DNA from: Cyclobacteriaceae bacterium
GTDB taxonomy: Bacteria; Bacteroidota; Bacteroidia; Cytophagales; Cyclobacteriaceae
DNA length: 54,043 nt
Assembly (NCBI GenBank): GCA_012033595.1
Contig: JAAUQL010000032.1
Location: 1 to 54,043, forward strand
Direction: 5' to 3'
The first letter of the stretch is position 1; every line of letters starts with the position of its first letter. Below the pieces are notes generated by a model that was not told the DNA's origin, did not search any database, and was given only the letters and a program-made list of their open reading frames with translations. Of this stretch, positions 6,732 to 48,820 are shown piece after piece. A program made the translations under genes and the position numbers.

Positions 6732-7276
6732 CTATTTGTCGCTATGTTTTGTATCGCTTGCCCACACCAGTAACATGCCCTCTTTGCCGGCCTGAATTTC
6801 CCCAAATTCGACATCGGAATATACCAGGTAGCGGATCTTGCGTTGAATGAGTTTCTCTGCCTTTTCTATTAGCGTAAGCAAATAACCCTGATCGATACTG
6901 CCTATGAGCACCAAATCGATCAGTTTGCTGTCTTTGCCTTCTGCGATGTCGCCGGTGAGGTACACCGCATGCAATTCGCCCAATCGTTTGGCGATCCACT
7001 CAATGACCACATCGAGGCCAAAGTATTTTCTGACAATGCTGTTGATTTCGAAATACAAAGGGTGGTCTTGATTGACTGAAAAACCTTTTTATTGCCATTA
7101 ACCTCCGACTTAATCATATTGGCATCTTCCAGCCGGTTAAGCTCCAACCTGATCGCATTGCTTGATTCACCGAATTCATTTTCTAATCCGCGCAAATACG
7201 CTGAGTTTCCCGGATTGAGGAAAAACTTCAACAGCAGCTTTACCCGCGTTTTGGAAGTGATGAGCGTATCGATCAC
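6732..7276 (-). pseudogene. Winged-helix/nucleotidyltransferase regulator, frameshifted
   Basis: The reading frame from 7276 encodes a winged-helix domain (TLITSKTRVKLLLKFFLN, then SSNAIRLELNRLEDANMI); the second half is in another frame from about 7080 (HPLYFEINSIVRKYFGLD, then VYLTGDIAEGKDSKLIDLVL with an NTase-like G..D core). Adding one base in the A5 run at 7079-7083 (T5 on the coding strand) joins them into a single 181-residue protein of a type commonly found beside upxY genes. It is the first gene of the export operon. Whether the break is real or a sequencing error cannot be told here. Confidence 0.8.
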
Positions 7277-7605
7277 AGGAGTAGAGCAGATTTACGATGA
7301 AGTGGCCACGTGGGTTAAATACAGCTTCGCCATGTAAGTCCCATTTGGGATTATAGAGTGAGTAGTAAAAGTACTCAATTAAACAATTACCAAGCAATAG
7401 CGCAAGGATAAACAATCTTATGATTTTAAAAAAGAATATAACTTTTAATGATTGAAATCTGAAAATCTTCCAAAAACAACAGACAAACACGCCACCCATG
7501 TCAAATTTGATGCGCTCTATGGGAAAAAACGAAAGATGCCTTGCGTGAAAAGTGCGAAACATGGCGATCTTACGCGTAATTTTGTTTGCATAAACCCAAC
7601 TGTTA
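7277..7605. other. Divergent intergenic region, no gene seen
   Basis: The 329 bases between the exopolysaccharide operon and corA hold no convincing ORF. A TAATTTTG sequence at 7577-7584 fits a Bacteroidota -7 element for corA, 22 bases before its ATG, but no matching -33 box is evident. A small dyad GAGTA...TACTC lies at about 7361-7377. Confidence 0.4.
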
Positions 7606-8730
7606 ATGAAAAAAGTCAAACTTCCCTTCCTCACCCCGAAAGCCTTTGCCAATTCGGCAAAATCACTTGTTGACCATCTGCGGCCATCGACGCACAAAAT
7701 CGGCCTGCCGCCCGGGACGCTTACATATACCGGAAAAAACAAGCTCGATACCAAGATCAGGCTGTTTCAATTTAACCAGGAAGCGTTGCTTCTTGACAAA
7801 ATCAAAAGCGTAAAGGAACTTGATGCTAAGATGTCGGACAAGCACATCAGTTGGATCGATGTGGTCGGTTTTGACAACATTAAACTGTACGACGAGCTGG
7901 GGTCATATCTGGGCATCGACCAGCTCACACTCGAAGACATGCTCAACATCAGCCAGTTGCCCAAGATAGAAGACCACGACGACTATATTTTCATCACCCT
8001 GAAGGTAGTGGATCTGCTGCCCGAAGAACACATGTTTAGTTTTACTCATTACAGCCTCATTGTAAAGGACAATATGCTCATTACCTTTTCTGAAAAGCCA
8101 AACCCCATCTTCCAGAGTGTAGAAGAACGCCTGCAAAACACTGCCAGCAAAATCCGCAGTTCGTCTATAGACTACCTCAGCTACCGCATTATAGACATCA
8201 TTGTCGATCACTACTACAATGCCCTCGACTGGTTTACCAATATCTTGTCCGACCTCGAATCGGAGCTAATCGACAACCCTTCCAAAAAGCACATCAACTC
8301 GATACTTACCTTCAAGAAGCAATGGCTGATATTGCGCAAAGCGATCATTCCATTTAAAGAAGCCATGCGCAGGCTGATGAAAACGGAAGACAGCGACTAC
8401 ATCAAGCTGGTAGGCGAGCACTACATCGGTGACCTGGTCGATCACCTGCACAGCATCGAACAGACCCTGGACATCCTGCGTGAGACGCTCAACAACCTGA
8501 TGGACCTCTACAACTCGTCTATCAGCAACAAAATGAACGAAGTAATGAAAATGCTTACGCTGGTCTCCACCATCTTTATACCCCTCACATTTATAGCGGG
8601 TATCTACGGCATGAATTTTAAATATATGCCTGCGCTCGATATGCCCAATGGATATTACTATACCTTAGGCTCGATGGGAGCCATTGGATTGGTGATGTTC
8701 ATTTACATGAAGCGGAACAGGTGGTTATGA
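7606..8730 (+). CDS. corA: CorA family magnesium/cobalt transporter
   Basis: A 374-residue CorA-type channel. The N-terminal cytoplasmic domain contains TLEDMLNISQLPKIEDHDDY; the C-terminus has two membrane helices with the diagnostic GMN motif (IYGMNFKYMP, about residues 341-350) after the first helix, and ends with a positively charged tail (MKRNRWL). It mediates Mg2+ (Co2+) uptake across the inner membrane as a pentamer. It is a monocistronic unit closed by a strong hairpin at 8791-8822. Confidence 0.94.
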   Translation: MKKVKLPFLTPKAFANSAKSLVDHLRPSTHKIGLPPGTLTYTGKNKLDTKIRLFQFNQEALLLDKIKSVKELDAKMSDKHISWIDVVGFDNIKLYDELGSYLGIDQLTLEDMLNISQLPKIEDHDDYIFITLKVVDLLPEEHMFSFTHYSLIVKDNMLITFSEKPNPIFQSVEERLQNTASKIRSSSIDYLSYRIIDIIVDHYYNALDWFTNILSDLESELIDNPSKKHINSILTFKKQWLILRKAIIPFKEAMRRLMKTEDSDYIKLVGEHYIGDLVDHLHSIEQTLDILRETLNNLMDLYNSSISNKMNEVMKMLTLVSTIFIPLTFIAGIYGMNFKYMPALDMPNGYYYTLGSMGAIGLVMFIYMKRNRWL

Positions 8731-8790
8731 GTAGCGCTGTCTGTGATCCGTCAACATGCATGCCCTTTGCGCGGGCGGTATCCTTAAGAC

Positions 8791-8822
8791 AAAAAGCAAC
8801 CCCATGTGCCGGGTTGCTTTTT
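8791..8822. terminator. Bidirectional rho-independent terminator
   Basis: A 12-bp stem AAAAAGCAACCC (8791-8802) pairs with GGGTTGCTTTTT (8811-8822) around an 8-base loop, with A and T tracts on both sides. It sits between the convergent corA and flotillin genes and can serve both. Confidence 0.88.
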
Positions 8823-8857
8823 GCTTGAGCTTAAATGGCAAAACTGTATTTAAAAGG

Positions 8858-10471
8858 CTATTTTTCCTCTTTGCCTTTTTTGCTGTTCTCTTTTGCTAGG
8901 GTATCTGCTGGTTTTATCATATGCACTTCAGCGGGCAGATCGGCAGTTTTCTGATGATTGGCGCCTTGTAGCAAAGCGGGCAATTCTATGCCTGCATTTT
9001 TTAACAGGTCTTCGATAGGAGGCAGCGACTTGGCCAGACCAGACAAGAAGTTGGAGGTAGCGTTGGTGCCATTGCCATTGCTGCCGCTATCCCACACGGT
9101 TACTTTGTCTATTTTTATGTTTTTAATCGCCTCTACTTGCGATTTCACAATCTCGGGCAGTTTATCGGCAATCATCAACAATACGGCATCGCGCGAATTG
9201 GAACCTGCTGCCTCTACGATTTTCTGAAATCCTTCTGCCTGCTTGCTCAATATTTCCAGCATACCATTGGCTTCAGCCTGCATTTTGAAAAAGATGGCAT
9301 CGGCCTCGCCTTTGGCCTGCCTTCTGATGCGTTCGGCGGTGGCTTCTGCATCTATCTCCACCTTTTCTTTATCGATCTGCGAAGGAATTACAATATCGGC
9401 CATTTGTGAAGCTTTGTCTCTGAGTGCCCTGGCGACTTCGGCTTTTCTCTCCGATTCATAGGCTTCTTCCAGGGCTTTTGCCTGGCTCACCTTTTCTGCG
9501 GCTATGGCCTTGCGCTGCGCTTCGGCTTCTTTTTCCCTTCTCAAGGCTTCCGAATTGGCGATGGAGATTTTGGCCATATTTTCCCCTTCCACAGCACGGG
9601 CATTGGCTTCCGACACGGCTATACGCTCATTTTTCCTCGCTTCAGCTTCTCCTACATTGGCCTTGGCGCTCGATTCTGATTCGCCAATTTTGGCCAGTGA
9701 ATCTGCCGCGGCGATTTTTATACGTTCCAATTGGGCGGCCTCAGCCTCCCCTATCTTGGCCTGGGCGGTCAATGCAGCCACTTTGATCCGTTCGTCCTGA
9801 AAAGCATCTGCTTCACCAATAGAACCATCGCGGTTTTTCTCGGCGACACTTTTTCTGGCATCGTTTACGGCTTTAGATGCTGCCTCCTTGCCCAATGCCT
9901 CAATGTATCCTGACTCGTCTTTGATGTCCGTGACGTTAACATTGATCAGTTTCAGGCCGATCTTCTTCAACTCGGCCTCTACATTGCTGGCTACATTTGC
10001 AAGAAACTTGTCTCTGTTGTTATTGATCTCCTCGATATCCATAGTAGCGACCACCAGGCGCAATTGCCCAAAAATGATGTCCTTGGCCAAATCATAGATT
10101 TCCTGTTGGGTCAGACCCAGCAGACGCTCGGCAGCATTGTTCATAATACCCGATTCCGTTGAAATACCAACTGTAAATCTGGAAGGTACATCGACACGGA
10201 TATTTTGCCGGCTAAGGGCATTGGTTAGATTAACTTCAATAGAAATAGGCGTGAGATCCATGAACTTATAGTCCTGGATAATAGGCCAGATAAAGGCGGC
10301 ACCACCATGGATACATCTGGCAGTAAGTACGCCATCGGCATTGCTGCCCACCCTGCCAAACACCACCAATATGCGGTCAGAAGGACAGCGTTTGTAGCGT
10401 TTGAAAAGTGACGATAAAATAATGGCCAGAAACAATATTCCGGCGACAACGGCAATTAGAATGTAGCTCAT
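8858..10471 (-). CDS. Flotillin-like (SPFH) membrane scaffold protein
   Basis: A 537-residue SPFH/flotillin protein. An N-terminal membrane anchor (IAVVAGILFLAIILSSLF) is followed by the SPFH domain (about residues 35-200, with LINVNVTDIKDESGYIEALG at its end) and a long Ala/Glu-rich coiled coil (about 200-390) with repeated GEAEA segments typical of flotillins, then KNIKIDKVTVWDSG and a low-complexity tail. Flotillins organise membrane microdomains and oligomerise. The gene starts 10 bases after the NfeD-like gene, the standard partner of prokaryotic flotillins. Confidence 0.92.
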   Translation of the reverse strand: MSYILIAVVAGILFLAIILSSLFKRYKRCPSDRILVVFGRVGSNADGVLTARCIHGGAAFIWPIIQDYKFMDLTPISIEVNLTNALSRQNIRVDVPSRFTVGISTESGIMNNAAERLLGLTQQEIYDLAKDIIFGQLRLVVATMDIEEINNNRDKFLANVASNVEAELKKIGLKLINVNVTDIKDESGYIEALGKEAASKAVNDARKSVAEKNRDGSIGEADAFQDERIKVAALTAQAKIGEAEAAQLERIKIAAADSLAKIGESESSAKANVGEAEARKNERIAVSEANARAVEGENMAKISIANSEALRREKEAEAQRKAIAAEKVSQAKALEEAYESERKAEVARALRDKASQMADIVIPSQIDKEKVEIDAEATAERIRRQAKGEADAIFFKMQAEANGMLEILSKQAEGFQKIVEAAGSNSRDAVLLMIADKLPEIVKSQVEAIKNIKIDKVTVWDSGSNGNGTNATSNFLSGLAKSLPPIEDLLKNAGIELPALLQGANHQKTADLPAEVHMIKPADTLAKENSKKGKEEK

Positions 10472-10481
10472 AAAGAAAAAA

Positions 10482-11087
10482 TTAATATAAAACCTGAGTG
10501 ACCAATAAAATTTGATTGTTTACGATTTCCAGCACCAGCGCAACACTTCCCGTGGGGAGGTCCTTTTCGTCGTCGGTGATGGCTTCCATTTCACGCAATG
10601 TGCCTTGTATTTCCACCATTACTTTACCATGGCCGGCCCTGTTGGCTGGCACCCTCAGGTACACATCGCCGCTTCGACCAATGGCACGCTCTATGACCAT
10701 GGTGCCGTTCTGGTCGAGTTTGCCAATATAGTAAAATAACGCAGCCATGACTACCATCATCACAAATCCGCATGTCGCAGAAAATAAAATAACCAGAAAT
10801 AGCCCCAGTCCCATGTTCAAAAAACCAAGGCCTGTCCAGCCGAAAAGCATGAAAAAACCCAGCACATTTTTGTACGTAAAAAACTGCCATCCCACACCTC
10901 CATCAGCATCGCCATCAATATCTAAACCTGTACCGCCATCGGCGCTCATGTCGTCGGTATCGCTACCCAACAGGGTCATCACCAATTGAATGATGAATAA
11001 CACTGTAGCAGGAAGAACAATGATCCAATAAATTTTTTCGGAAAAGGCCAGGGCAGCCCACCAGGAAGAAATGTCGAGTAGCATCAT
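10482..11087 (-). CDS. NfeD-like membrane protein, flotillin partner
   Basis: A protein of about 201 residues with two to three N-terminal membrane segments (IYWIIVLPATVLFIIQLVMTLL; KNVLGFFMLFGWTGLGFLNM; FLVILFSATCGFVMMVVMAALF) and a C-terminal OB-fold region (IGRSGDVYLRVPANRAGHGKVMVEIQGT). Such NfeD/YqiJ-type proteins are encoded just upstream of flotillins and are thought to act with them in the membrane. An acidic GSDTDDMSADGGTGLDIDGD loop follows the first segment. An ATG at 11117 would add 10 residues; the one at 11087 starts closer to the first helix and is preferred weakly. Confidence 0.82.
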   Translation of the reverse strand: MMLLDISSWWAALAFSEKIYWIIVLPATVLFIIQLVMTLLGSDTDDMSADGGTGLDIDGDADGGVGWQFFTYKNVLGFFMLFGWTGLGFLNMGLGLFLVILFSATCGFVMMVVMAALFYYIGKLDQNGTMVIERAIGRSGDVYLRVPANRAGHGKVMVEIQGTLREMEAITDDEKDLPTGSVALVLEIVNNQILLVTQVLY

Positions 11088-11367
11088 AAAAATTTTCAGG
11101 TTTAAAAAAATCGCCAAATACCCACCTCGCTAAAACGCATTAATGTTACCCAATAAAATTGATTTTTCAATATTTTTTTCTTTTGAAATACAAATGAATC
11201 CCGGTGCGTTTTTTTAATAAAAATGGAATATTTATAGCCTACCGCCCCATACGGTTACTATTGAGCTCATGGCTTAGCAAATGCCCAGTCATATATGCAT
11301 TGCATAAGAATGAAAAGGAAAAAAAAAAACACTCATGTCCTGGAACAGCAGTAGGAATAAAATCCAG

Positions 11368-11423
11368 ATGTTCAACATATGTGACTTTTGTCATATGTAG
11401 TGAACATCTCAGCTATACCTTTG
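11368..11423 (+). promoter_or_regulatory. Putative Crp/Fnr-type operator and promoter of the CoA-disulfide reductase gene
   Basis: A 40-base imperfect inverted repeat has outer arms ATGTTCA (11368-11374) and TGAACAT (11401-11407) around a core TGTGA-N6-TCATA (11380-11395), close to the Crp/Fnr consensus TGTGA-N6-TCACA. A Bacteroidota -7 element TACCTTTG lies at 11416-11423. With a start site about 6 bases beyond it, the operator centre (11387.5) falls near -41.5, the class II activator position. The operator and promoter are read from sequence; the identity of the regulator is inferred. Confidence 0.55.
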
Positions 11424-11455
11424 TATTGAATATGGAAATCAAGCTTTAAATATAC

Positions 11456-13140
11456 ATGGAAGAAACAATCATAATCATAGGCGGGCTGTCAGCCGGTCCA
11501 TCAGCCGCTGCCAAAGCAAGGAGGGTAAACGAACACGCAAAAATCCTCCTTTCGAAAAGACAGCATACATCAGCTATGCCACTTGTGGCATACCTTATTC
11601 GATGTCGGGAACTATAAAGAAACGTGACAAATTATTGGTGGTTTCACCCGATTTATTGCGCGAACGCTTTCAGATAGAGGTGCACCTCAATGAACCGGTA
11701 TTGGATATATTGCCCGATGAGCACAAAATTCTGACCCCTGAAGGCGCGTATAACTATACCAAACTCATCTATGCGGTTGGTGCCCTTCCTTTTGTGCCAC
11801 CGATCAACAATCTGGAAAAGACCGAAGATTGGTCTAACTGCCGTACCATCGAAGATTTCGATAAGATCGTGGCCGACAAGGTGCTCACCGACAAGCAGCA
11901 CATCACCGTATTGGGAGCCGGCCTCATTGGCGTAGAAGTAGCCGAAAACCTGAACAAAATCGGCAAAAAAGTGACTATTGTTGAGTTGGCGCCCACTGTG
12001 CTTTCGCCATGGGACAGCAAGTTTGGCAACCTGGCCGAAAGCGTACTCAAAGACCATGGCATCGACATTTATACCAACACCACCATCGAAAACTTGAAAG
12101 TGGAAGACGGACACCTCACCGAAGTGATGCTGAGCAATGGACAGGTGCTGAAAAGCGAATACCTGCTGATGGGTATTGGCGGCAGACCAAACACCGCCAT
12201 GCTTGCCTCCAAAGGAGTGGAAACCATCCGCAATGGCGCGATAAAAGTGAACGCAAAAATGGAAACTTCGCTGCCCGATATCTATGCTGCCGGAGACTGT
12301 GCCAGCATCATGAACCTGCAGACGGGCGAGCATGATTACTTTCCGATGGGCACCCATGCCAACAAGGGAGGCCGTGCCGCCGGAGCAAACGCTGCCGGAG
12401 GAGAGGAACACTTTAAGGGCGCATACCGCACGGCCATCGTGAAGGTATTCGAATATACCCTCGCCAGGACAGGCCTTAACCCACGTGCACTGAAAATGAT
12501 GAACTACGACTACGACGCTACCTTCATCATTGCGCCTTCTACCCCGGGCTTCTATCCGGATCAGAAGGAAATGCTCATGGAAATTTATTATAATAAAAAT
12601 ACCGGTGAGTTGCTCGGCGCAGAAATATTTGGCGAGGTAGGCATAGATAAGCGTATAGATGTGCTGAGCACTGCCATATTGGGCAAGCTGACCGTCGAAG
12701 ACCTCACCAACCTCGACCTGGCCTATGCACCGCCGTTCTCCCCGGCCAAAGACCCTGTGGTTATTGCAGGATTTGTATCTGGCGACAAAGACAAGAACAA
12801 GTTTAAGGAAATCAGCGCAGACGATCTCTCCAATGTGATCAGAGGCGAAAAGTTTAAGAAATACCAGTTGATCGATGTACGCGGCGCCATAGAGCTGGAA
12901 AAACAAGGCATGATAGCCACCGCACAAAACCTGGAGTTGGATCACCTTCGGGAGACCCTCGGCACGCTCGACAAAGACGTGCCGACCATAGTGTATTGCG
13001 CCAAAGGCCTAAGGGGATACCTGGGGAGCATGATCCTTGAAAACCACGGCTTCAAACATGTCTTTAATCTGGGTGGCGGCTTTACGGCATGGAAAAAATT
13101 CGGGTTGGAGATTAAGTCTTACTCCATCGAAAATAAATAA
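11456..13140 (+). pseudogene. CoA-disulfide reductase with C-terminal rhodanese domain, frameshifted near N-terminus
   Basis: A FAD/NAD(P) disulfide reductase of the CoADR-rhodanese type. The ATG at 11456 opens a flavin-binding fold (IIIIGGLSAGPSAAAKARR). One base is missing in the TTT at 11550-11552; adding a T gives FEKTAYISYATCGIPYSMSG, which includes the active-site Cys, and continues in the long frame to 13140 (561 residues). The NADH fold is ITVLGAGLIGVEVAENL, the second FAD motif is DIYAAGDCASI, and the rhodanese end has YCAKGLRGY with the catalytic Cys. It reduces CoA disulfide or CoA persulfide. Without the restored base the downstream frame would start at 11602 and lack the flavin fold. 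Confidence 0.88.
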
Positions 13141-13170
13141 TTTTCTATAGTTGGTTGTTTTGGTTTGATT

Positions 13171-13341: not shown

Positions 13342-15570
<2,229 letters not shown>

Positions 15571-17686: not shown

Positions 17687-18888
17687 ATGACAAAAACATC
17701 ACTGCTTCCTCAAAACGACCGCGCGCATGCGCTGGATGCCTTGCGGGGGGTAGCTGTGCTTGGTATTTTGATTATGAACATCCAAAGCTTTGCCATGATC
17801 TCTGCTTCATACACCAATCCTATGGTGTTTGGAAGCATGACCGGCGTCAATAAAACCTTATGGTTGTTTAGCCATTTTTTTGCAGATCAGAAATTCCTAA
17901 GCATATTCTCGATGCTATTTGGAGCAGGCATCGTGCTTTTCAGCGACAATTCCGAGCAAAAAGGGTATCTGCCGGCACGTTTTTATTTTCAAAAGCTTTT
18001 TTGGCTGTTGGTTATTGGCCTAGCCCATGGATATCTGCTGTGGCATGGCGATATCTTGGTGTTTTATGCCCTCTCGGGCGCAATAGCATTTTTGTTTCGC
18101 AAACTTTCTCCCTGGGTACTGGTCAGCCTGGCAGTGGTCATTTTTCTAATACCGGTTTTCAACTATTGGTTGTTTGGCAAAACTTTGCCAATGTGGCCCC
18201 CGGAAGCATTGGAGGGAATAAAAGTAAGTTGGCGCCCGGGCCGGCAGAAGTCGATAGGGAAGTAACTGCCCTGACAGGCAACTATCTCCAGGCATTGATG
18301 TGGCGGATCCCTCAAACATTTATGATGCAGACTTACGTTTTTTTGGCATTAATGGGCTGGCGCGTACTGTCTATGATGTTGCTGGGCATGGCCCTGCTAA
18401 GGTGGGGCGTACTCACCGCAAGGCTAAGCATAAAAAACTATGTGGTCATGGCAGTGTTGGGACTGTCGATTGGTTTTTACTGATTGAAATTGGTGTGCAA
18501 AAAATTTTGCTGCCGATTGGTCTGTGGCCTATTCCATGTTTTTGGGGTATTGTGGAATTATGTAGGGAGTTTATTTGTCGCCTTAGGATATGTCGCTTTC
18601 ATAATGATGCTCTGTCGTGTCCGCAAACTTAGCCTATTGGCCAAAGTGGGCAAAATGGCATTCACCAATTACATTTTAATGACCCTGATTGGTACCACCA
18701 TATTCTATGGGCACGGCTTTGGTCTGTTTGGCACCATGGAGCGATCGGGGCAACTGCTGGTGGTGGTGTGCATTTGGGTCGTGATCATGGTCTTTAGTCA
18801 CCTTTGGCAAACCAGGTACTATTTTGGGCCGATCGAGTGGCTGTGGCGATACCTTACCTATGGCAACAAGCCGGTCAATAGGCGGTGA
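17687..18888 (+). pseudogene. DUF418 family membrane protein with four single-base losses
   Basis: The start (DRAHALDALRGVAVLGILIMNIQSFAM) and end (KLSLLAKVGKMAFTNYILMTLIGTTIFYG) are a DUF418/YeiB-type inner-membrane protein, probably eight or more membrane segments. The frame is broken four times: near 18205-18213, in T5 at 18474-18478, in A6 at 18499-18504 and in T5 at 18539-18543. Adding one base at each point restores continuous DUF418-like sequence (GFLLIEIGVQKNFAADWSVAYSMFFGVL written in pieces) and a length of 401 residues. Four losses, all apparently in short runs, suggest read error rather than decay. Confidence 0.82.
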
Positions 18889-23716: not shown

Positions 23717-25476
23717 TTATTCTTTCTTTAAAAAAATGCCTTCTATTTCCAGCTCATTTTCCTTACCTATTTCAATCAGTTCCAGCGTCAATTCGGTTTC
23801 CTGCCCTGCTTTCAGGCTTGCTTTCGTTGTCTGAAATTCCGTCCAATCATGGAGGTGATCGTAGTCTGGCAGAGCTGTTTGAACATGTTCGCCATTGACT
23901 TGCGTACCGAGCAGGCAGTGGCTTATCTGGCCGCGATACCTAACCGAAATGCTGTAATAGCCGCTGGAAGCAGGCAATATGCTCCAGCGAATCATGTCTC
24001 CTGCGGCCTTCCATCCTGTGATGTAGCTCGCATCGGTGCCCGAAGGATGAAAGCCGCCATTTGGATTTTTGAATTTCAGGTTGCCCGAGGCATTTCCAAG
24101 GTGGGGCGCCAGTCGCACCGGGTTTTCTTCATCAAATCCGACAGGAACAGGCTTGGGCAAATGTGAGGTGCTGTCGTAAATCATGTGGTAAAAATCCAGG
24201 TAGGCCTGGTTAAGTTCTTTCAGTTTTCCGGAAATTCCTCAGCCAGATTGTGCTTTTCGCCGGGGTCGCTTGCCAGGTGGTATAGTTCATCCCCATTCAC
24301 CATTTTCCACCTTTGCCTGATAGCCGCCCCGCCGGGGTACGGAGCCAGGTCGCGCAAGGTACTCAAGTGAAAATTTTCGAAATAGCTTCTTTCATCCTTG
24401 GAATTGGGCTGACCTTCCAACTGGTTTTTCAGGCTTACCCCGTCAAAATCAGCAACATTTCCTGATCCAATGATATCGAGCAGCGTAGGTACCACATCGA
24501 TATGGGCGGCCAGGCTTATGGTGTCATATGCGGGAAACCACTTCCCCTCCCATTTCCAAAAGCACTGTGTGCGGATGCCACCTTCATAAACACTATATTT
24601 TTGATTGCGCAAGCCCACATTGTACCGAAGTTCATCGGTATTTTTCCAGCCTCCGGTCAGTGGTCCATTATCGCTCATAAAGATAATGATGGTGTTGTCC
24701 ATCAGCGAATTATCGTTTATTGCCTGAAACAGCCGACCCAAATTTTCATCTATGTTTTCTATCATTCCATAAACTTTGGCGGTTTGGAGCGGCAGTCCCT
24801 TTTCAAGGAAATGTCGGTAATAGGCGCTGTCGATCTGAAGCGGAGTATGGGGCGCATTGTAGGCCAGATAACAAAAAATAGGTGTCTTTTGATTGCTTAT
24901 AAATTCAATGGCCTTGTCGGTAAGCACATCGGTGATATAGCCCCGGGTTTGTTCCATCTTTCCATTGTGTTCCAGGATCGGATCAAAGTAATTTTCGGTA
25001 TGTCCGGTACGAAAACCGAAGTATTCGTCAAACCCCTGGGCATTTGGCACAGAAGGGTAATTTTCGCCGAGATGCCATTTGCCAAAAATACCCGTGGTGT
25101 AGCCTTTGGCGCTAAGTATTTCGGCCAGGCTATTTGCACCGGGATCCATAGTTTCAAATCCGTTCAATACACTACGCACCCCAACCTTCTGATGATATTT
25201 ACCGGTAAGCAGGCTAGCCCTGGTCGGTGCACATACCGGCGATACATAAAAGTATTTGAACTTTACGCTTTCACCGGCCAGCTCATCTAAATGAGTAGTT
25301 TGGAGGTGAGGATTGCCCGCGCTGCCATAGTCGCCATAGCCCATATCATCCGTTAAAACGATGAGTATATTCGGAAAGGTTGGCAACGCCTTTTTGCCGG
25401 CACAGCCAAGCATAGACAGCGAAAGTAGCGTTGTTTTCAAAAAATTGAAAAGGAAGTTTTTGCAGTTTAGGTTCAT
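23717..25476 (-). pseudogene. S1-family sulfatase lipoprotein with C-terminal beta-domain, frameshifted
   Basis: A formylglycine-dependent sulfatase: lipobox SMLGC, IVLTDDMGYGDYG (metal-binding Asp pair), VCAPTRASLLTGKY (CxPxR, Cys converted to formylglycine), FGKWHLG, and FMSDNGPLTGG. The first frame ends just after LYHLASDPGEKHNLAEEFPEN; one base is missing in the T4 at 24224-24227. Restoring it continues as KLKELNQAYLDFYHMIYDS into a C-terminal beta-rich module (ASYITGWKAAGDMIRWSILP; GYYSISVRYRG), giving 586 residues. It removes sulfate from a polysaccharide. It heads the GH78/GH26 gene group. Confidence 0.85.
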
Positions 25477-25506
25477 TATTATAATTAAAAAAAAATTACC
25501 ATACAC

Positions 25507-29816: not shown

Positions 29817-31069
29817 CTAGTTGGAGCGAATGGCCACCACCGGATCGAGTCGGGCTGCCATCAGCGCGGGAATAATACCCGCAGATACGCCGACAAAGGT
29901 AGAAATGCCAATACCCAAAATAATATTTTTGAGCACCAGTGTGAGTACGAAATTACCAAGTGGAATAAAAGTGCCAAAATAAACCAGCATCAATCCAAAG
30001 CCTCCGCCAATCAAACTCAAAAACACAGCTTCGAACAAAAACTGAAAAAGGATAAAATAATTTTTGGCCCCCAGAGACTTTTGAATGCCAATAATCCCCG
30101 TGCGCTCGCTTACGGTTACAAACATGATATTGGCTATGCCAAAGGCGCCAACCAGGATGGAAAAATACCGATGAACCACCCCGCCATGGTGAGCACATCA
30201 AATACCCCATTGAGCGAGTTCATGATTGCTTCCGGTCTGTTGATGGCAAAATTGTCCTTTTCAGTAGGCCTGATGCCCCGGTAAATCCGAACAAGACCCC
30301 GCACTTCGTTTTCCAATTCGATAAGACCGATATCATTGGCTCCGCCTTTGAGCCACAGCGCAGTTCCCAGCCCACGATTTTTGCCAGTATAGTACAATTT
30401 GCGCAATGCATGAAAAGGAACGATCACCGACAGGTCATTGCTCGGTGTGCCCAGCAGGGTCTCTCCCACTTCTTTCATGAGACCGACCACAGTGAATTTC
30501 ATACCTCTGATGGTAATTTCTTTTCCTATGGGCGATTCTGTGGCCTGGAAAAGCGCCTCTTTCACATCATGGCCTATTACGGCCACATTGGTCCCGAAAG
30601 AGAACTCCCGGGAAGAAACAAATCTACCTTCGATAATATCAATGTCAAACAAGTCGATGTGGCCCTCGGTAGTCCCCCAGAAATTGATACCGCCTATGCT
30701 ACTGCTTTTTCTCTTGATGGTGCTGCCCCCTGCCACCGCAAAAAAGCACATAGACGTGGCATTGGTGAGGTTGTCTTGCAGGTATTTAAATTCGTTGTAC
30801 TCCACCTCGGGCCGTTTCATATATTCCCACCAGGGATAATCGGGGCCAAAGGTCATGGGCCATTTTTCGAGGTAGATGACGTCAGAACCTAAGAAAGAAA
30901 GGCTGTCTTTGATGTTTGCCTTGAGCGAATCTACCACGGTGAGCGCTGCGATAATGGCAAAAATACCAATGGTGACCCCGGTAAGGGAAAGAATAGTGCG
31001 CAGTGGATTTTGAGTGAGCGCGTTCCAGGCAAACCTAAAACTTTCGTAAACTAATCTAATTATAATCAA
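29817..31069 (-). pseudogene. MacB-like ABC transporter permease, frameshifted
   Basis: A MacB/FtsX-family permease. N-terminal membrane segment in LTQNPLRTILSLTGVTIGIFAIIAALTVVDSLK; a periplasmic MacB_PCD domain to about residue 290; then GWFIGIF followed, in another frame, by SILVGAFGIANIMFVTVSERTGIIGIQKSLGA and two more membrane segments ending LMAARLDPVVAIRSN. Adding one base to the A5 at 30161-30165 joins them into 417 residues, the normal family size. It exports lipoprotein-, peptide- or drug-type substrates with an ATPase encoded elsewhere. Confidence 0.87.
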
Positions 31070-32236: not shown

Positions 32237-32243
32237 AAACTTT

Positions 32244-33401: not shown

Positions 33402-35341
33402 TCATTGCACAGTGAGCTGCTCCGCCAGCCTTATCTGCACAGACTGCCTGCCGGGCAGGGAAATGGTAAACGTTGTATATTGTTCGGGGATGCTCTCCAG
33501 GGTGATGTCGCCACCCATATTTTCCACCCCTTTTTTCACAACATACAGTCCCAGACCATTGCCTTTGGAATTGGTGTTGCCAATAAAAAACATTTCAAAA
33601 ACCTTATCTTTGATATCGGGAACGATGCCGGCGCCATTGTCGCTAAAGGTGATCATGGAGCGGCCGTCGACCACATCGAAGCCAATAGCAATGGTGAGAG
33701 ACATGCCGTGGATGGGGCCGTATTGCAGGCTGTTATCGAGCAGGTAAGTAAATATTATTTCCAGGATTTCTTCGTCGCCATAGAGCGGCTCGTCTGTGGC
33801 AATATCCAGCTTCATATTGATGTCTTGCTTTTCCAGCTTGTCATCGAATTTGGTTTTGATTTTTAGCACTAACGCTTCAAAATCAATTTCCTGGCATTTT
33901 GAGCTGTTATTGATCTGATGTATATGAATCAGTTTGCGCAATAGCAAATCCATCTGAGAGGCCGTCAGATTGATTTTATCCAAAATCTCATTGATTTTTT
34001 CATCTCCAGACATCACCCTGATAAGTGATGACAAGCCGAAAAAGGTGGTCAGCGGCCTACGCAAATCATGCGACGATTTGTACAGGAACACATCGAGCTC
34101 TTTGATGGCATTCTGCAACAATGCCGTTCTATTGGCTACCTTCACTTCCAGGCTGGCATTCACATCTGAAATGGTTCGATTGGCGGCTTCAAGTTCCTTT
34201 TTCTTTTCGCGCAACTTTTGCAGCAAAACCGTGAACACCGTTAGCACGGCGACGAGAAAAAGTACAATAATGGTGACGATAATCAATTTGCGCCTGAATT
34301 CCTTTTGTGCAAACTCCTTTTCCCGCTCGATTTCCACCAGCCGGATTTCCTGGGCTTTCAGTGACTCCCGCAGGTTTTCAATGGTACTCATGGATCCTTT
34401 GAAGGAGGTTTTGAAAAGTATCTCATTTTCAAGGAGCAGCGTTTCAAGACGACGTAATTGAGCGGCAATCTGCTCCTTCCGCTCAGGAGTCAACTGGGCG
34501 ATATCTTCTATTTTTTGGTTGAGCACACGCATATCGCGTTCCAGCCATTGGTTTTGCTTCAATAAAAACTGATGATCGAACGCGATATCGTCTATCATTT
34601 TTTCGAGGCTGCTGGAGATGTCCGCTTGCAGCAGGAGCGAATCCTGGACTTTTTCATTGAGGTAAAAATCCTTCAATTGATTCTCCAAATCATCTTCATT
34701 TTCCAGGTCTTCGATGGTAGATTGTGCCTCTATGGTTCGGGCAAAGCCTTGATTTTGCTGCGGCAAACCAGCCTCAACTTTGCGGCTTTTGATGATGGCC
34801 ACAAAGGCCGTGTCATTTTCTAAAAAACTCTTATTGAGTATTTCGTAGCCTGCTATCTGAAATCTTGTGGCTTCATTGAGCCGGAAGTCAAGCGGCAAGA
34901 TTAGCCTGAAAACGCCTATTTGATTGGTGGTTCGGGTAAATGACAAACCCTGGTTGTCGGTAACCAGCACTTCCATATCCTGCAACGCCACGCCTTGTTC
35001 GTTTTCTACGATGCCATATACGAATTTGTAATTTTTCTTATTGAGCATCACTTCCACCAGCTTGTCGCTGTAGCTCCAGGAGCTCAGCTCGTATCCTCTT
35101 TTATACGCGACCACCGATTTCGGCTTGGAAATTTGCGTTTGTGAAATCATAAAAGCCTCTCCCTGCATATCGGATAATAGAGGCTGGTTTTGATCTATGA
35201 CCATGGTGACATTGCTCAGGGCATTGCCCTGGCTGTCTTTAGAAATTACATAAAGCGTGTCCTGTGATTGAGCATAAGGGATGTGAAACAGGAAAAAACC
35301 AGAATAAGTGCAAAAATCATATTTTTATAGAGGAGTTTCAT
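33402..35341 (-). pseudogene. Membrane sensor histidine kinase with carboxypeptidase-regulatory-like sensor, frameshifted in signal peptide
   Basis: The frame from 35204 encodes most of the protein, but the ATG at 35341 (MKLLYKNMIFALIL) supplies a signal peptide if one base is added in the A6 at 35293-35298: LVFFLFHIPYAQSQDTLYVISKDSQG. Total 646 residues. A beta-sandwich segment (FVYGIVENEQGVALQDMEVLVTDNQG) is followed by coiled coil, a membrane helix near 358 (IVTIIVLFLVAVLTVFTVLL), an H-box SSHDLRRPLT near 424, N-box LLDNSLQYGP, G1 FSDNGAGI and G2 GNGLGLYVVKKG. The C-terminus after FTISLP runs through a palindromic element. No receiver domain or adjacent response regulator. Confidence 0.88.
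33444..33460. repeat. CCTGCC/GGCAGG palindrome in kinase 3' end
   Basis: CTGCCTGCCGGGCAGGG lies within the last 25 codons of the sensor kinase, just after the codons for FTISLP, where many histidine kinases end. It resembles the hairpin inserted in a repeat copy at 1018-1039. Confidence 0.55.
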
Positions 35342-35377: not shown

Positions 35378-36960
35378 CTATTCCATGATTTCTCGCAATG
35401 AGGGAATGAATACTATAGAAATGTTTTTGTCAAGCGGATGGTTAACCGGCAAATGCAAATTGGTTTGGTATCTTGATCCCCCCTCCCTGATTACCACAAG
35501 TTTGTAGTTGGCATTCCAGGGAAGCAAGAAATCAAAATATCCCTTTTCGTCTGTATTTTGAGCATAAAGTAGTTCATTGGTTTGTGCATCAATCACCTGA
35601 ACAGGCAAATTGGCCAGCGGACTAACTGCTTGTTTTTTTTCAAATTGTGTTTTGTCCAGCATCACCGTACCCGAAATCCCATATCGGAATTTGTCTTTGT
35701 ATATCTCCAGGTAATAAATATCATCCTTAGATTGTTTGCCCCCTCTGTTGGAACAGAAATATCCGAAATCCCCGTGTTCATCCAGCGCGACTCCAAAATC
35801 ATCTGCCGTACTATTGATGGGGTATCCGAGATTTACCAATTGAAGGGCACTATCTTCTTCCACGTAAGTGGCAAAAATATCTAAACCACCCAAGCCACCA
35901 TGGCCATCGGAAGCAAAATAAAAAGTCTGATCGCGATGCAGATAAGGAAACATTTCGTTGCCGGGACTATTTATTTTCGGCCCCAGATTCTGAGGTTTGC
36001 TCCATCCCTGATCGTGATACAGGCACATATACAAATCAACACCTCCGTAGCCTCCCGGCATATCAGACGCAAAATACAAGCGCTTTCCATCACTGCTCAT
36101 GGCAGGATGAGCTAAAGAGGCTCCTTGCTCATTGATATCCAGAAGACTGACGTTGCCCCAATCCTGCTGCACCTTTTCTGCAGAAACAACTTTAGCCGTC
36201 CCTGCCCGCCCTCCGTATCATTAACATTGGAAGAGAAAATCATTTTGGTTTCATCCTTGTAAAAAGTGGCATTGCTTTCATTTGCCGGGCTGCTAAGACC
36301 CTGGCTAAACATCACCGGAACTTCAAAATCATTTTTCTCATTGGGCTTGCCAGATTTGGAAAATGGCGCAAAATATAAGTCGAAAAGTTCTGTATTGCCT
36401 GCGCCGGGCAACTTGCCAAACTTCCCCGGCCGGGAAGAAGAAAACACGATTCCCCCTTCGTAAAATGCGGGAGACATCTCTGAAAAACGGGTATTGATGT
36501 TTGTAGGCTTTACCAAATAAAACAAGGAATCAAGGTACAAATGTTCAATATTTTCCATTGAATGTATCGCATCCGAAAATTTGCCGGGAAACTGACTGTC
36601 CAGACGGTGGTAAATGTTGGCCGCTTTGTCGTAGTCACCGGTTTTAGAAAAGCAAATGGCCTTTTGCAACCAATCGTTTTGGCTCAGGTTATTTACATCC
36701 TGTACCTTGTCATACCAAAAGACTGTGGGCTTGGGCTCCCCGATTTTATAATAACTGCGCGCAATAAGCACAGCAGTGATGTCTGTAGGACGCTTTTTAT
36801 AATCTTTTTTAAAGAGTTCTATGGCGGTATGAAAGTCTTTGGCTTCGAAGCGCTGCTGCGCCACCGAAAATGAACTGGCAAAGATGTCCCAAACTGTCTG
36901 GGCAAATAATTGTCCATGCAAGAAAATAGCAATCGAAAAAAGACACAACAGTTTGCGCAT
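35378..36960 (-). pseudogene. TPR/PD40-repeat secreted protein, frameshifted
   Basis: Signal peptide LLCLFSIAIFLHGQLFAQ, TPR-like N-terminal region (FEAKDFHTAIELFKKDYKKRPTDITAVLIARSYYKIG), then WD40-like PD40 segments (FSEMSPAFYEGGIVFSSSRPG; LAHPAMSSDGKRLYFASDMPGGYGGVDLY; NEMFPYLHRDQTFYFASDGHGGLGGLDIF) and a terminal CNA/carboxypeptidase-like segment. One base is missing at the CC of 36196-36197; adding it gives GGQGRAKVVSAEKVQQDWG and a 527-residue product. Relatives beside PorP/SprF usually end in an OmpA domain, which is absent here. The stop lies 36 bases before the kinase ATG. Confidence 0.83.
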
Positions 36961-36970
36961 TCTATATCCT

Positions 36971-37912
36971 CTAAAAGTATCGTGGATTGATCACATCCCT
37001 TTTGTCAAAGGTAAAATAATAACTCAATAATATTTCATGAGATGCTGTAGAAACCGATTTGTTTTTGGCCAGTGGGGCATCGTATGCATAGCCAAGCCTT
37101 AGATGGTTGGTCACCTGCATTTGAATGAGCGCATTCAGACTGCTTACCGAACGGTACGATGCGCCTAGCCAGAGTGCATCCATAATAATAATGGTGCTGT
37201 TGACATCCAGATAAGTACCGTATCCGGATATTGCTTTGATCAACAATCCGGGTTGGAGTTTTACCTGGCTACTCAAATCAAACATATATCCTGCCGTGAC
37301 AAAGTAATGTCTTTTTTTACTTACCAAATTACCCTCATAGATATTATCCTGTCGGCTTATGCTGATATTCGGCACCGAAAAGCCTACATAGAACCTCGGA
37401 GTATAAAGATATAGCCCTGCGCCTATTTGGGGTTCGGTGGTACTGTAATCTGACTGGTAAAACAACTGGTCATTTGGATCTTGCAAATCTTGAGACAAAG
37501 AAGCATAGGCTGACCTCCTGGCGGCTATGCCGCCCTGCAAACCAAAATTAAGGGTGGCATTTTCAGCTATTGACAAAGCGTATGATCCTGCCAGCGAAAA
37601 ACTGTTGGTGCGATGAATGCCCACCTGGTCATTGGCAAACAGAATGCCCACACCTACTTTGCTCAAGCCTACTGGGGCATGTGCCGACATCACAAACGAA
37701 AGAGGAGCCTCCTTGACTCCCGCCCATTGGTTTTTGTACATGGCGGTGACATTGAGCACATCCTGACTACCCGCATAGGCCGGATTGACTATAAATCCAT
37801 TGAACATGTACTGACTGTACATACCATCGTACTGCGCCCACACATCACCTGCGCCAGCCATTGCGGCGATCCATAAAGCAACAAATTGTATGATTGGTCT
37901 CTTTAGCTTCAT
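36971..37912 (-). CDS. PorP/SprF family type IX secretion membrane protein
   Basis: A 313-residue outer-membrane beta-barrel with signal peptide (FVALWIAAMAGAGDVWAQ) and the PorP/SprF hallmark YSQYMFNGFIVNPAYAGSQDVLNVTAMYKNQWAG split across residues 32-65, later LGVGILFANDQVG-like GVGILFANDQVG and C-terminal LRLGYAYDAPL. SprF homologues are needed for secretion or attachment of partner type-B cargo. It overlaps the adhesin stop by 4 bases (ATGA), coupling it to that cargo gene. Confidence 0.92.
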   Translation of the reverse strand: MKLKRPIIQFVALWIAAMAGAGDVWAQYDGMYSQYMFNGFIVNPAYAGSQDVLNVTAMYKNQWAGVKEAPLSFVMSAHAPVGLSKVGVGILFANDQVGIHRTNSFSLAGSYALSIAENATLNFGLQGGIAARRSAYASLSQDLQDPNDQLFYQSDYSTTEPQIGAGLYLYTPRFYVGFSVPNISISRQDNIYEGNLVSKKRHYFVTAGYMFDLSSQVKLQPGLLIKAISGYGTYLDVNSTIIIMDALWLGASYRSVSSLNALIQMQVTNHLRLGYAYDAPLAKNKSVSTASHEILLSYYFTFDKRDVINPRYF

Positions 37913-40649
37913 TTCACTACTTCTACATATCCCTTTATCGTTTCGCCATTTCCCAGATCAATCCTATAGAAATATGAGCCATTGGGCAATTCGCTGCCGG
38001 AGCCCTTGTTGGCTCTGCCATCCCAAACCCGTTCTTCATTATTGTATTGATTAATTGCATACACCAGCTTGCCCCAGCGATCGAATATCCTGACGCTGTT
38101 GTCTGGGAACTGTTCAATACCCTCTATAATCCACATGTCATTAGATCCATCGCCATTGGGTGAAATTCCCTTATACACCCTGAGCTTAAGGTCTATTTCC
38201 AATGGAAATTCCACATTTACCAGCGTGCATGCTTTAGGTGCGCCATTGTCACAAACTTCAAATTCAAATTGTTGAGGTCCTGTGGCAGTAGTAAAATCAA
38301 AGCACAACTCCTCTGCCCTCACAGCTGCCACTTCTACCTCTGCGGGCTTCCGGACTATTTGAGCCAATGATAATTTATCCCCTTCCACATCAATCATTTG
38401 CAGGCAAAGCGTGACCAAACCCAGATCAGAAACCGTGAGATCAAAATCCTGAAACACAGGCAGGTCATTAACAGGGGTCACCACTATGGTCACATTGGCT
38501 CGGGCACAGCGGTCGGGCTGCGACACGGCACATACCTGATAGCTGAGCTGGTCGGTGCCGTTAAAGTTTACATTGGGCAAATAGACGATTTTTCCATCTT
38601 CGATGCGTGCCGTACCAAACTCCGGTTTTTGAAGGATTTCTTTAAGGAGCATTTTTTCTTTGGGGATGGATATTTCGTCGTTGGCAAGTACGTCCATGAC
38701 GATGGCCAGCTCTTCCTCGGTTGAAAAATCATCGTCTCCGGCAAATATGTCGATGGCCGGCACCAGGGTTTCTATCATAATAATCGAACTACACTGTGCA
38801 GTATTATTGTGTATGTCGATCGCTTCATATTGCAGCATATATTCCCCTTTCGGGAAAAAATCTCCGCTTGCATAGTTAAGTTTATCGATCCTATTCACGC
38901 TTTTTAAGCCACAATTATCCGAAACCACAGGGTCATCAAAATTTACAATTGTACCATTAAACTCGCCGCTGATAGAAAAAGACTGGCTCGGGGGGCAGAC
39001 CATCATTGGGGAAACCGTATCGTTTACCTGCACCTCAAACTCACATTTTGCCTGGTTTTCGGCCTTGTCGTAGATGTGGTATATTACCTTTGTGCTTCCA
39101 ACGTCAAATAGCCCTCCGGGAATTTTGTTGGATTCCACCCTGATCACTTTTACGTTGTCGGTAAATTGTGGCTCGGGCCAACTAACGTACGCATTACAAT
39201 CGCTCTCCACGGCATAGGTCATCACATTTGCCGGACAAAGGGTAAATTTTGGTTTTTCTGTATCCCTAACTTCCACCTTAAAACTGCAATAGGCTTTGTT
39301 TCCCGCTTCGTCAGTTGCCTCATAGTTAATGTTTGTGATGCCACAGTAGAATTTTTGGCCGCTGCTATGTGAACTGATGATGCTCACTTTTCCTTCTCCT
39401 CCCGCTACAAGCGGTGCCTTCCAGGTTGCTATCGCAAAACTGTCGGCGGCCTGGGTTATCAACAACTGATCGGCAGGGCAATTTGAAAAAACCGGTGGAT
39501 TAGCAGCTTTTTCTATCACTATCACCTGAAAATTGCAGAGGGTCAAGTTGCCTGATTTATCCGTAGCAGTATAGCTCACATTTGTTATTCCATTTTCAAA
39601 AAAGCTATCTGGCTCATGTGTACTGGTAAAGGTAGCTATGGCATCGTTATCACTGGCCGTGGGTTTTTCCCATTTCACCACAGTGCCATCGCTGCCTGTA
39701 TCGCTATACTCAGTGATATTGCCCGGGCATCCACTGATTACAGGATCAACTTTATCGAGGATGGTGACTTCAAAACTGCATGTACTGCTATTGCCTGCGG
39801 CATCTGTGGCCGTATAAGTCACCTGAGTAAGGCCTATCGGAAAAGCAAACTGCAAGTCGTGACTGCTGGTAAGCGAGGCGACCCCGACATTGTCTTTCAC
39901 AGCGGGAACCTGCCACACCACCACCTTCGTATTGGCGGCCGGGGCGACGTTTTCTATTATGTTATCAGGACAAGAAGAAAATACCGGCGCTTCGGTATCT
40001 GCACTCACACCCGAGAGCAGGCATGGGTATTGTTGGCAACATTCTTTGCTATCGCAATCGAATATGAGCCCACTGTTGTCCATTTTTCAACCACTTCCAC
40101 CGTTCCATTTCCTGTAACGACGGCTTTATTTTTGAACTCATTGATGGATAGTTTACCGTCGATGGTGTAAGTGGAATTCTGGTCTTCCAGCACCATTTCC
40201 CCCTTCCAGAGCATTTCACCACCGCTTTCGATGGCTAATCCATCATCAAATGCTTTGATCTCACATTTTGCACAGCCTTCTACTTCGCCTCCATCCTTGA
40301 CGATCAGCATGCCCCCATCCTTCATTTCCATATCTTCATTGTTCATGATCAACTTGCCATAAACGATCAATTTGCCGCCCTTGCCGATCTTGATCTCGCG
40401 GCTGGAGCTGAAGGTATGGCTGGCACTGATGGTGACTGTGTTTTTGATTTCTAAATCGAAATTGATGGCACTGTTGTGTTTGATATCCACATTTTGGGTG
40501 GTTTTGCCGCCATTCAGTGGCACACCTAGTGTCCAGTCTGAGGCTAAGTTCCATTTGGGATTTTCTTTGATGGAGGCCGTTTGCGCAATTAGGCTTGGCG
40601 CATAGCAAATGAAGAGTAAGATACCAAAACAAAACAGGGTTGGCTTCAT
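37909..40649 (-). pseudogene. HYR-repeat adhesin with type IX secretion type-B C-terminal domain, frameshifted
   Basis: Signal peptide (LFCFGILLFICYAPSLIAQ), an N-terminal beta-helix-like part (KNTVTISASHTFSSSREIKIGKGGKL...), five HYR repeats of about 80 residues (each with CP..., SGxx..VTYTATDAAGNSSTCSFEV-type ends), a tandem cadherin-like segment (VLANDEISIPKEK; NVNFNGTDQLSYQVC) and the gliding-type C-terminal domain (ISPNGDGSNDMWIIEGIEQFPDNSVRIFDRWGKLVY). One base is missing in the T5 at 40083-40087; restoring it (VVEKMDNSGLIFDCDSKECC) gives 913 residues. Secreted and surface-anchored or released by type IX secretion. Confidence 0.9.
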
Positions 40650-40657
40650 TCTTTAGT

Positions 40658-43651: not shown

Positions 43652-43723
43652 AAACCATATTAAAAACGCGCACCAAGACCCAGATTAGTATAACCTGAGC
43701 TCAGGTGTGGTGACAATCTGGGC

Positions 43724-44869: not shown

Positions 44870-44899
44870 AACTTCCCTGATGGTCTTGATCTACATCAT

Positions 44900-46486: not shown

Positions 46487-46764
46487 TTATGCTGGGTAAA
46501 TTGATTCATACAAATGCGAGCACAAACGATGAATCTATAACAACCATGCCATACACTGCGATGTAAAGCTTTTGGCCAATAAGGCGCACGTTGGCCGATT
46601 TGCCATCTTGGGCATCGCATATTGTAGCTACGCGAGAATACCCATCCGGGTAAAAATTTCTACAATTCTTTCAGTTGATTTTGACCTGGATGAAGGGTGG
46701 AATGGCTATAAGCAGCAATGGTTTGGTTTTTGAAAATGCAGAACAGAACCAAACAACAAAATTT

Positions 46765-47271
46765 ATGGAAGAACCACTCTTTCAAAATGTAAGTGACCAA
46801 TTATTTATCTTATTAGACGTTTTTATTGCCATTATTTTGGGCGGTGTGGTTGGCTATGAACGAGAACAAAAGGACAAGCCAGCTGGCCTACGAACCAATA
46901 TGATCATAGCGGGCGCTACAGCGCTGCTGTTTTCTCTTGGCCGTGTGTTGGTGTCGAGCTTCGAAGACACCGTTCAGACCGATGCGCTCGGTATAGATTC
47001 GACTCGTATTATTCACGCCATTATTGTTGGGGTCAGCTTTATCGGCGCGGGTACCATCCTCAAAGGTAAAGGGAAGGAAAAGGTGTACTACCTCACCACC
47101 TCCGCCACCATTTTGCTATCGGCAGGCATAGGCATAAGCGTGGCCATGAGAAATTATATACTTGCTGTGGGCATTACCATTTTTGTGATCATCATCAACT
47201 CTGCCATGCAAAAACTCAGTATTCGCAACAGTGGCCATAAAGAAAAGACATCGGATCAGCAAACCAAATAA
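46765..47271 (+). CDS. MgtC/SapB family membrane protein
   Basis: A protein of about 168 residues: FIAIILGGVVGYEREQKDKPAGLRTNMIIAGATALLF (the MgtC signature G...GxERE...AGLRT), GVSFIGAGTILKGKGKEKVYYLTTSATIL, and four to five membrane segments. MgtC proteins affect growth at low Mg2+ and membrane potential. The ATG at 46765 is chosen over 46675 because the upstream part (ISSNGLVFENAEQNQ) is not MgtC-like. A small CCCC-TTCG-GGGG hairpin lies downstream at about 47334-47345. Confidence 0.88.
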   Translation: MEEPLFQNVSDQLFILLDVFIAIILGGVVGYEREQKDKPAGLRTNMIIAGATALLFSLGRVLVSSFEDTVQTDALGIDSTRIIHAIIVGVSFIGAGTILKGKGKEKVYYLTTSATILLSAGIGISVAMRNYILAVGITIFVIIINSAMQKLSIRNSGHKEKTSDQQTK

Positions 47272-47482
47272 AGCATACACAATTTGCCAACGGGTACTGA
47301 TGCTTATGATAAAAAAAACGGCGAAAAAACCAGACCCCTTCGGGGTAGATTGATTCGCCATTTTTTCCATTCATGGAGGTCTCCCTCTCCTATTCTTGTA
47401 CACGCACTGTGGACTAATAAGGGCTTGGTGAATAACTCAAATTATAGCATTACCGATATCCTTCCAAATTCCGCGCTATCAC

Positions 47483-48115
47483 TCACGGCACACCTTGCGC
47501 CAGATGGGTTAGCTTGACTGGAATTAAAAAAAATCCATGTTGGCACTTATCATTTGCACAATAAATAATTACTGAAAAACTGACCACCCGGTGCCGACGG
47601 TTGAATCCTGATTCCCGTCCGTCTTTACTGCCTGGGCTTAGGTTGGGTATCCCTACGGAATACGCCGTGCTCAATATGAACGGCTCAAGTTTATATCCAA
47701 TACCGAGGTTAACCCCATAGTCCAAGCCCCTAAATACGTTTTCAGTAAAGCCTGCAATATAATCATCAAATTTATGGAAGCGGGGGGATATAGATTGCTT
47801 GTCTTGATAAATATCAGATATGGAAGAAGACATGTGTGCCACATTATAGTCGTATTTGATTTTTCCATTTATCCACACAGCCAAATAATGCCCAGCAAAT
47901 ACCATCAGGTGATCAAAAAAGGTATAGGAAATTTGAATGGGCACTTCCAGATAATTATATGTCTGTTTCGAATAGCCCTCGGCAGTGTAAGGTATTTTAT
48001 AGGAGCTTTCAATATCATAACTTACCCTTGCTGGTGAAGATGAGCCTTGATTGCAAATCAATTGTAACCGCCTTGTAAACTCCATCTTCCAAAATTCGGG
48101 TGCTCTCAATATGTT
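47483..48115 (-). pseudogene. Outer-membrane beta-barrel fragment (PorT-like), truncated and frameshifted
   Basis: The second half reads as a Bacteroidota outer-membrane barrel (YNYLEVPIQISYTFFDHLMVFAGHYLAVWINGKI; FRGLDYGVNLGIGYKLEPFILSTAYSVGIPNLSPG). A preceding stretch in another frame (DGVYKAVTIDLQSRLIFTSKG) fits the same fold, with a frame change near 48022-48030. There is no signal peptide: the gene stops abruptly near 48115, where an IS66-like fragment begins. The C-terminus may also be out of frame after VVSFSVI. Probably a decayed remnant. Confidence 0.65.
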
Positions 48116-48129
48116 TGTAAAAAAAGATC

Positions 48130-48249
48130 ATGACACAAACCAAGGCAAGACGAAGCAAAGATGAGATGTACCCGGTTATCGAAGCCTGGCAAGACAGCGG
48201 GCTTGCTGCTGGAAACGGCATTCTTGAAGTAGCCAAAAAGTTTGGTTAA
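48130..48249 (+). pseudogene. IS66-type TnpA-like fragment
   Basis: The ATG at 48130 opens RRSKDEMYPVIEAWQDSGL, which resembles the N-terminus of IS66 accessory protein TnpA. After about 48200 the frame continues into antisense primase sequence and stops at 48249, so only about 24 residues are TnpA-like. The fragment joins a truncated barrel gene on its left and a truncated primase on its right, marking an old insertion/deletion junction. No inverted-repeat ends were seen. Confidence 0.45.
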
Positions 48250-48579
48250 TACGGCTTGTCTGCCGGTTTCAGGCATGGCTATTTTACCGGGTTGACTTGG
48301 TTTATTGAGGCCCGTGCCATTTACAAGCGATTTAGCTACAAGGATTCCTTTGTGTTTATCCTTTTCCATTTTGACGCAAAACTCCATCTGGTCGCCACTG
48401 CCGGCACTGCAGTTGCTGCTGAAGCAGGTCCGGGTATTGGTCTTCGGATAGAGCTGCAGGCTGGGCGTTTTGTCATCGTGCCAGGGACAGTTTAGCCGAT
48501 GGTTCTTGTCTGGTTTCAGCCCGTACTGATCCAAGACCTGGGCAAGTGGCAAACGCTGTTTGATCTCTTGGATTTCCAT
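48201..48579 (-). pseudogene. CHC2 zinc-finger primase-like fragment
   Basis: LAQVLDQYGLKPDKNHRLNCPWHDDKTPSLQLYPKTNTRTCFSSNCSAGS-like sequence (residues about 12-61) is a DnaG-type CHC2 zinc finger with C-H-C-C ligands, followed by GDQMEFCVKMEKDKHKG. The catalytic TOPRIM part is missing: the primase sequence ends near 48201 and the ORF runs on into IS66-like antisense sequence. The ATG overlaps the SymE stop (TAATG), a translationally coupled pair often seen on mobile elements. Confidence 0.75.
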
Positions 48580-48820
48580 TAGCCTATCTTTTTTAGAACT
48601 TGTCTGACTTTTTTCAAGGCTGATTTGTAGTCCTGCTCTGGTTCGGATACCTCCTGTGGCTCGATAATCAGTAACCTGTCTCTGGTCGTAATACTCACTT
48701 GATCACCTACTGTAAAACCTAGCTGCTCCATCCACAACCCGATTAACCGCAGCTCTGGTACTTGCTTGTTTCCCTATGATAGCCCTGGATTTTTAAGCTC
48801 CTGTCATATTTTTTCGCCAT
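48579..48820 (-). pseudogene. SymE-like toxin gene, frameshifted
   Basis: MAKKYDRSLKIQGYHRETSK is followed in another frame by VPELRLIGLWMEQLGFTVGDQVSITTRDRLLIIEPQE, the typical SymE-type (AbrB-like fold) sequence. One A is missing at 48762-48763; adding it gives an 80-residue protein. SymE proteins are known as type I toxins. Its stop codon overlaps the primase start. The A-poor site (only AA) makes this break less obviously a homopolymer artefact than others. Confidence 0.75.

Follow-up and report, generated by a model that had tools for sequence, protein, structure and literature searches.

Scattered single bases have very probably been lost from the draft genome of a Cyclobacteriaceae bacterium through uncorrected sequencing or assembly error, so that genes that are whole in the bacterium appear broken in its assembly. 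The defect extends through the whole assembly: many contigs are affected, and related genomes show it rarely. The phenomenon is almost certainly an ordinary one, a flaw of the assembly and not a feature of the organism.

The window is the stretch of 54,043 nucleotides that was analysed, and it is the entire contig C63 of the draft genome, here called G000 (5.75 Mb in 234 contigs, 97.2% complete). The remainder of G000 was sampled as 20 stretches comprising 287 kb, giving 341 kb in all with the window included. The GC content of these 341 kb is 43-45%, and CHU_C and T9SS sorting domains are present in the window, which suggests a member of the Bacteroidota. Among the best 80 loci of a genome scan with a CorA-like protein, identity did not exceed 39%. 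Six congeners were compared, whose long matches to G000 are approximately 65-80% identical in DNA. A near-identical second copy of positions 17000-48900 of the window was sought within the G000 genome and a close species was sought among the six congeners; since neither was found, a comparison within the species was impossible. The main test was a frameshift-aware alignment of proteins to DNA, using ORFs of the relatives that were start-trimmed and non-overlapping. The congener baseline came from the same pipeline, with the congeners queried with G000's own ORFs. Matches from tblastn were retained at no less than 50% identity and 100 bits, with one query per target place, and alignments of less than 45% identity or fewer than 80 residues were dropped together with duplicate reference places (440 reduced to 312). 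As a second test, a dicodon frame model, which makes no use of homologues, was run at two settings. N-rich or masked stretches were removed throughout: 2 of 442 alignments at the frameshift-aware step, 4 loci in the first frame model, with the same filter in its tightened form, and 5 of 226 reference loci in a first frame-switch screen. That screen, which used stop-to-stop ORFs, was replaced because some of its reciprocal calls in the references were false, apparently through matches between wrong frames at these identities. The first frame model, which gave no event for the window, 8 for the other stretches and 5 for the congeners, was tightened because it absorbed real breaks as gene overlaps.

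The original prediction, made from the window alone, was that about a dozen single-base losses interrupt otherwise complete genes. The runs that it listed are present in the window where it placed them, and at nine of the twelve sites, in six genes, the frameshift-aware alignment confirms one lost base each relative to homologues. In the relatives, homologues run whole across the tested junctions. On the reverse strand, 6732..7276 encodes an uncharacterised protein split near 7078-7083. Continuous homologues of two congeners locate one lost base at 7077-7078, with 125 of 172 residues identical to one of them; neither piece matches Pfam or NCBIfam, and by eye the product seems HTH/nucleotidyltransferase-like. 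On the forward strand, 11453..13140 encodes a flavoprotein with a rhodanese domain, split near 11549-11552, which we take from its domain order to be CoA-disulfide-reductase-like (Pfam Pyr_redox_2, Pyr_redox_dim and Rhodanese). The break puts its N-terminal ~33 residues out of frame, and 442 of 562 residues are identical to a protein of reference genome G002 when one lost base is allowed; a second reference concurs. The DUF418 (YeiB-like) gene, also on the forward strand (17687..18888), has lost four bases. It is identical to its G002 counterpart at 228 of 397 residues, with four -1 events and without an in-frame stop, and a G004 reference yields the identical four events. The Pfam DUF418 domain lies on the last piece, and the NCBIfam YeiB model matches the first, below its cut-off. 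Since the losses are placed near 18248, 18478, 18498 and 18549-18551, the predicted number is upheld, but the first site lies ~35-43 bases downstream of the spot that had been guessed.

The other three of these genes are on the reverse strand. For a sulfatase with a C-terminal extension (23717..25506; Pfam Sulfatase), split near 24224-24227, seven of seven reference sulfatases locate a lost base at 24221-24233, and one of them adds a second shift at 23931; the frame model has an event at 24222. A MacB/FtsX-type ABC permease (29817..31069), split near 30161-30166, is identical to a G003 protein at 350 of 417 residues with one lost base; seven queries concur, and MacB_PCD and FtsX fall on the two pieces. 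In a TPR-PD40 protein (35378..36960; Pfam TPR and PD40), split near 36196, one lost base is placed at 36173-36218 by seven of seven reference proteins and at 36186 by the frame model. The alignments of the 6.7-7.3 kb, CoA-disulfide-reductase-like, DUF418 and permease genes contain no in-frame stop.

Three listed sites, all on the reverse strand, lie in other genes. The break near 40083-40087, in a HYR-repeat surface protein with a T9SS type B sorting domain (37909..40649), is supported on the weaker grounds of the fit of its pieces and a frame model call. The upstream piece is leader-like by eye, the HYR repeats and T9SS domain are on the downstream piece in a different frame, and the model puts a lost base at 40019, within the same gene. 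A hydrophobic piece one frame away from the histidine kinase at 33402..35330 (HATPase_c) appears by eye to be its leader, which makes the junction near 35293-35298 a putative break. The candidate break near 48762 lies in a small ORF (48580..48820), presumably SymE-like and resembling a toxin family, whose frames were seen only separately. An apparent break at 32237 was rejected, as it has a stop and sits upstream of the start of a gene that we take to be IspD-like. In the region of the small ORF, at 49503-49895, 48106-48579 and 48966-49301, VapC-like and DnaG-N-terminal-like ORFs (NCBIfam matches below cut-offs) adjoin an XRE-like regulator recognised by eye, and this group is possibly a mobile or defence-type patch. 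Further along, 50266-51650 is presumably the tail of a repeat protein of the Rhs type and appears by eye to be in pieces; a Pfam search with 50266-51324 gave no match.

Comparison with the related genomes reveals a marked excess of breaks. By alignment, 10 of 84 places in G000 are broken, as against 2 of 312 in the congeners (Fisher P = 5e-6). The window contributes 4 of 25 places and the other stretches 6 of 59, and the window alone differs from the congeners with P = 3e-4. Counted as events, there are 16 in 80 kb of G000 and 2 in 269 kb of the congeners. Two events in G000 and six in the references were excluded from this count because their flanks were weak or short. Of the six excluded reference events, three lie opposite the permease break of the window itself. 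The two accepted ones include one that faces the dapF break of G000, so the true congener count may be 1 instead of 2. In coding sequence, the tightened frame model counted 6 events for the window (42 kb) and 12 for the other 20 stretches (227 kb), a total of 18 in 269 kb, compared with 8 in the 986 kb taken from four congeners. The looser setting yielded 7 in the window and 23 elsewhere (30 in 271 kb), compared with 19 in 987 kb. These model counts are rough: of the six calls in the window, no fewer than two (3742 and 23720) resemble ordinary gene borders, and the first version gave the window none. Outside the window, homologues did not confirm the calls in stretches L096, L099 and L103 or the second call in L110, some of which may mark borders between genes. 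On small numbers, breaks are somewhat denser in the window than in the other stretches. Individual stretches vary: L105 (G000:C100:1-20000), 20 kb with rpsD and long congener matches, has no break, which would reflect either an uneven distribution of errors or luck. Among the small contigs, L096 (G000:C10; 3.1 kb) has 2 indels and L111 (G000:C190; 3.8 kb) has 3, some of them gained bases, and the sequence of short contigs may be less reliable. At G000:C66:34900-36258, a match to sulfatase contains two in-frame stops and could be another damaged stretch.

The breaks outside the window include murD, dapF, recA, an M61 peptidase and an M49 peptidase. A model search of the whole genome found murD as two pieces that abut, one matching profile positions 1-249 and the other 252-440; both are below the family cut-off, and the halves are 5 bases apart, a distance that is not a multiple of three. 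An intact murD was sought with the same model across G000 (97% complete) and none was found, the split copy being the only one identified. The remaining six matches to the model score below 100 bits, and we read them as Mur-ligase paralogues. MurD should be present in a bacterium that has such a pathway for peptidoglycan. A recA is likewise in pieces, matching positions 2-131 and 130-262 of its Pfam profile, and dapF is in two pieces of one domain each, with a lost base placed by the alignment.

The original prediction also held that all the shifts go in the same direction. This is true of nine of nine tested sites in the window but not of the other 20 stretches, where the alignment gives 5 losses and 4 gains (n = 9) and the frame model 11 losses and 1 gain (n = 12). 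Overall, losses make up 12 of 16 alignment events and 16 of 18 model events, and three of the four gained bases among the alignment events are in the small contigs L096 and L111. The direction of a shift is not diagnostic by itself, because 7 of 8 model events in the congeners are losses too. The further statement that nearly all losses occur in homopolymers is borne out as a mild enrichment: the longest run within 7 bases averages 4.3 at lost-base sites and 2.97 at random coding positions (P = 5e-5; 14 lost-base sites, 12 from the alignment count plus those of the sulfatase and the TPR-PD40 protein, with the four gained-base sites excluded). The runs, however, are only 2-6 long, and those at the window sites are heterogeneous (A5, T3, T5, A6, T4, CC). 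A crude nanopore consensus shows a shortage of long homopolymers. When such a depletion of runs of 7 or more was sought in G000 relative to the congeners, there was none; A/T runs of at least 8 occur at 3.15 per 10 kb in the window, 2.72 in the other G000 stretches and 1.79-3.91 in four congeners. Wholesale truncation of long runs is thus not seen, and the proposed uncorrected homopolymer under-calling is supported as sequence error but is better described as a residual loss of bases from short runs. In the intergenic region 11310-11330, about ten consecutive A are retained, which also speaks against wholesale homopolymer truncation.

If the lineage were losing genes through small deletions, the broken genes would be true pseudogenes. 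The four lesions of the DUF418 gene fit this reading, and deletion bias is common in bacteria. However, the relaxed constraint expected of pseudogenes was absent from the broken places: the ratio of divergence at first and second codon positions to that at fourfold sites was the same in the 10 broken and the 74 intact places (P = 0.67). The 25 aligned places in the window have 7 frame breaks and 0 in-frame stops. In the 59 other G000 places there are 9 events along with 5 stops (one poorly aligned case accounts for 4 of the stops), and the 312 reference places have 2 events and 5 stops. This pattern of stops, breaks and constraint is unlike that of decaying genes. Since, in addition, the relatives have whole homologues of the tested genes, and the broken set includes murD (with no intact copy found), dapF and recA, pseudogenes are very unlikely.

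Transcriptional slippage or ribosomal frameshifting could instead restore the proteins, so that the breaks would be tolerated; both processes have been described in bacteria and endosymbionts. No run type, however, is common to the sites, and in place of the long A/T run that this reading would require at each of them there are runs of 2-6; the DUF418 gene would require four independent rescues. In E. coli and Buchnera, according to one study, transcript insertions rise exponentially with run length, all are in A/T runs, and no frame-restoring transcription error was found (PMC5574713). Rescue of this kind seems even less likely than decay. It is scarcely credible that the living cell itself carries the breaks and that hundreds of lost bases, even in murD, dapF and recA, are tolerated through a general frame-correcting decoding. 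Equally hard to credit is the proposal that chance neighbours or overlapping genes were mistaken for split genes. The frame model calls at 3742 and 23720 do look like plain gene borders, and chance neighbours are possible at 35293 and 48762, but single homologues cross the junctions at nine sites and exclude this reading there. The preference of the original prediction for error over pseudogenisation or slippage is therefore sustained by breaks that are assembly-wide, rare in congeners, present in the housekeeping genes murD, dapF and recA, and accompanied by normal constraint.

Sequence error would arise if an indel-prone method, probably long-read sequencing, left errors uncorrected or only partly corrected. 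Scattered single bases would then drop out, chiefly from homopolymer runs 2-6 long, and every loss would shift the reading frame, leading gene finders to cut one gene into two. We infer the sequencing origin, including the platform. The excess over relatives, the predominance of losses over gains and the enrichment in homopolymers are as expected of long-read error; the low rate, the gained bases, the undepleted long runs and the intact L105 count against it. With approximately 0.7 (model) to 2 (alignment) breaks per 10 kb, G000 probably holds several hundred split genes, if the 341 kb sampled are extrapolated roughly to its 5.75 Mb. The breaks would mislead gene counts, pseudogene counts, gene lists and presence/absence calls, the last because the murD model has no match above its cut-off even though both halves exist.

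Two known systems may be compared with these results. Insect endosymbionts have frameshifts that are rescued by slippage, and G000 resembles them in possessing frame-broken genes under constraint. Unlike theirs, its sites lack long poly-A tracts and include T3 and CC, and its GC content (43-45% in the 341 kb sampled) and 5.7-Mb genome are also different. The second system is the residual error of long-read assemblies. A study of long-read metagenome contigs gives 6 frameshifts per kb unpolished and 1.2 per kb after short-read polishing (PMC6469205); the rate in G000, ~0.07-0.2 per kb, is far lower than even the latter, and its long homopolymers are undepleted. In one long-read draft, as described in PMC12007338, false deletions peak after runs of 4-5, mostly of A and T, a profile that the pattern in G000 matches, and the deletion errors that remain in nanopore and PacBio assemblies resemble those of G000 in being single losses, mostly in short runs (2-6), spread through the genome and splitting genes.
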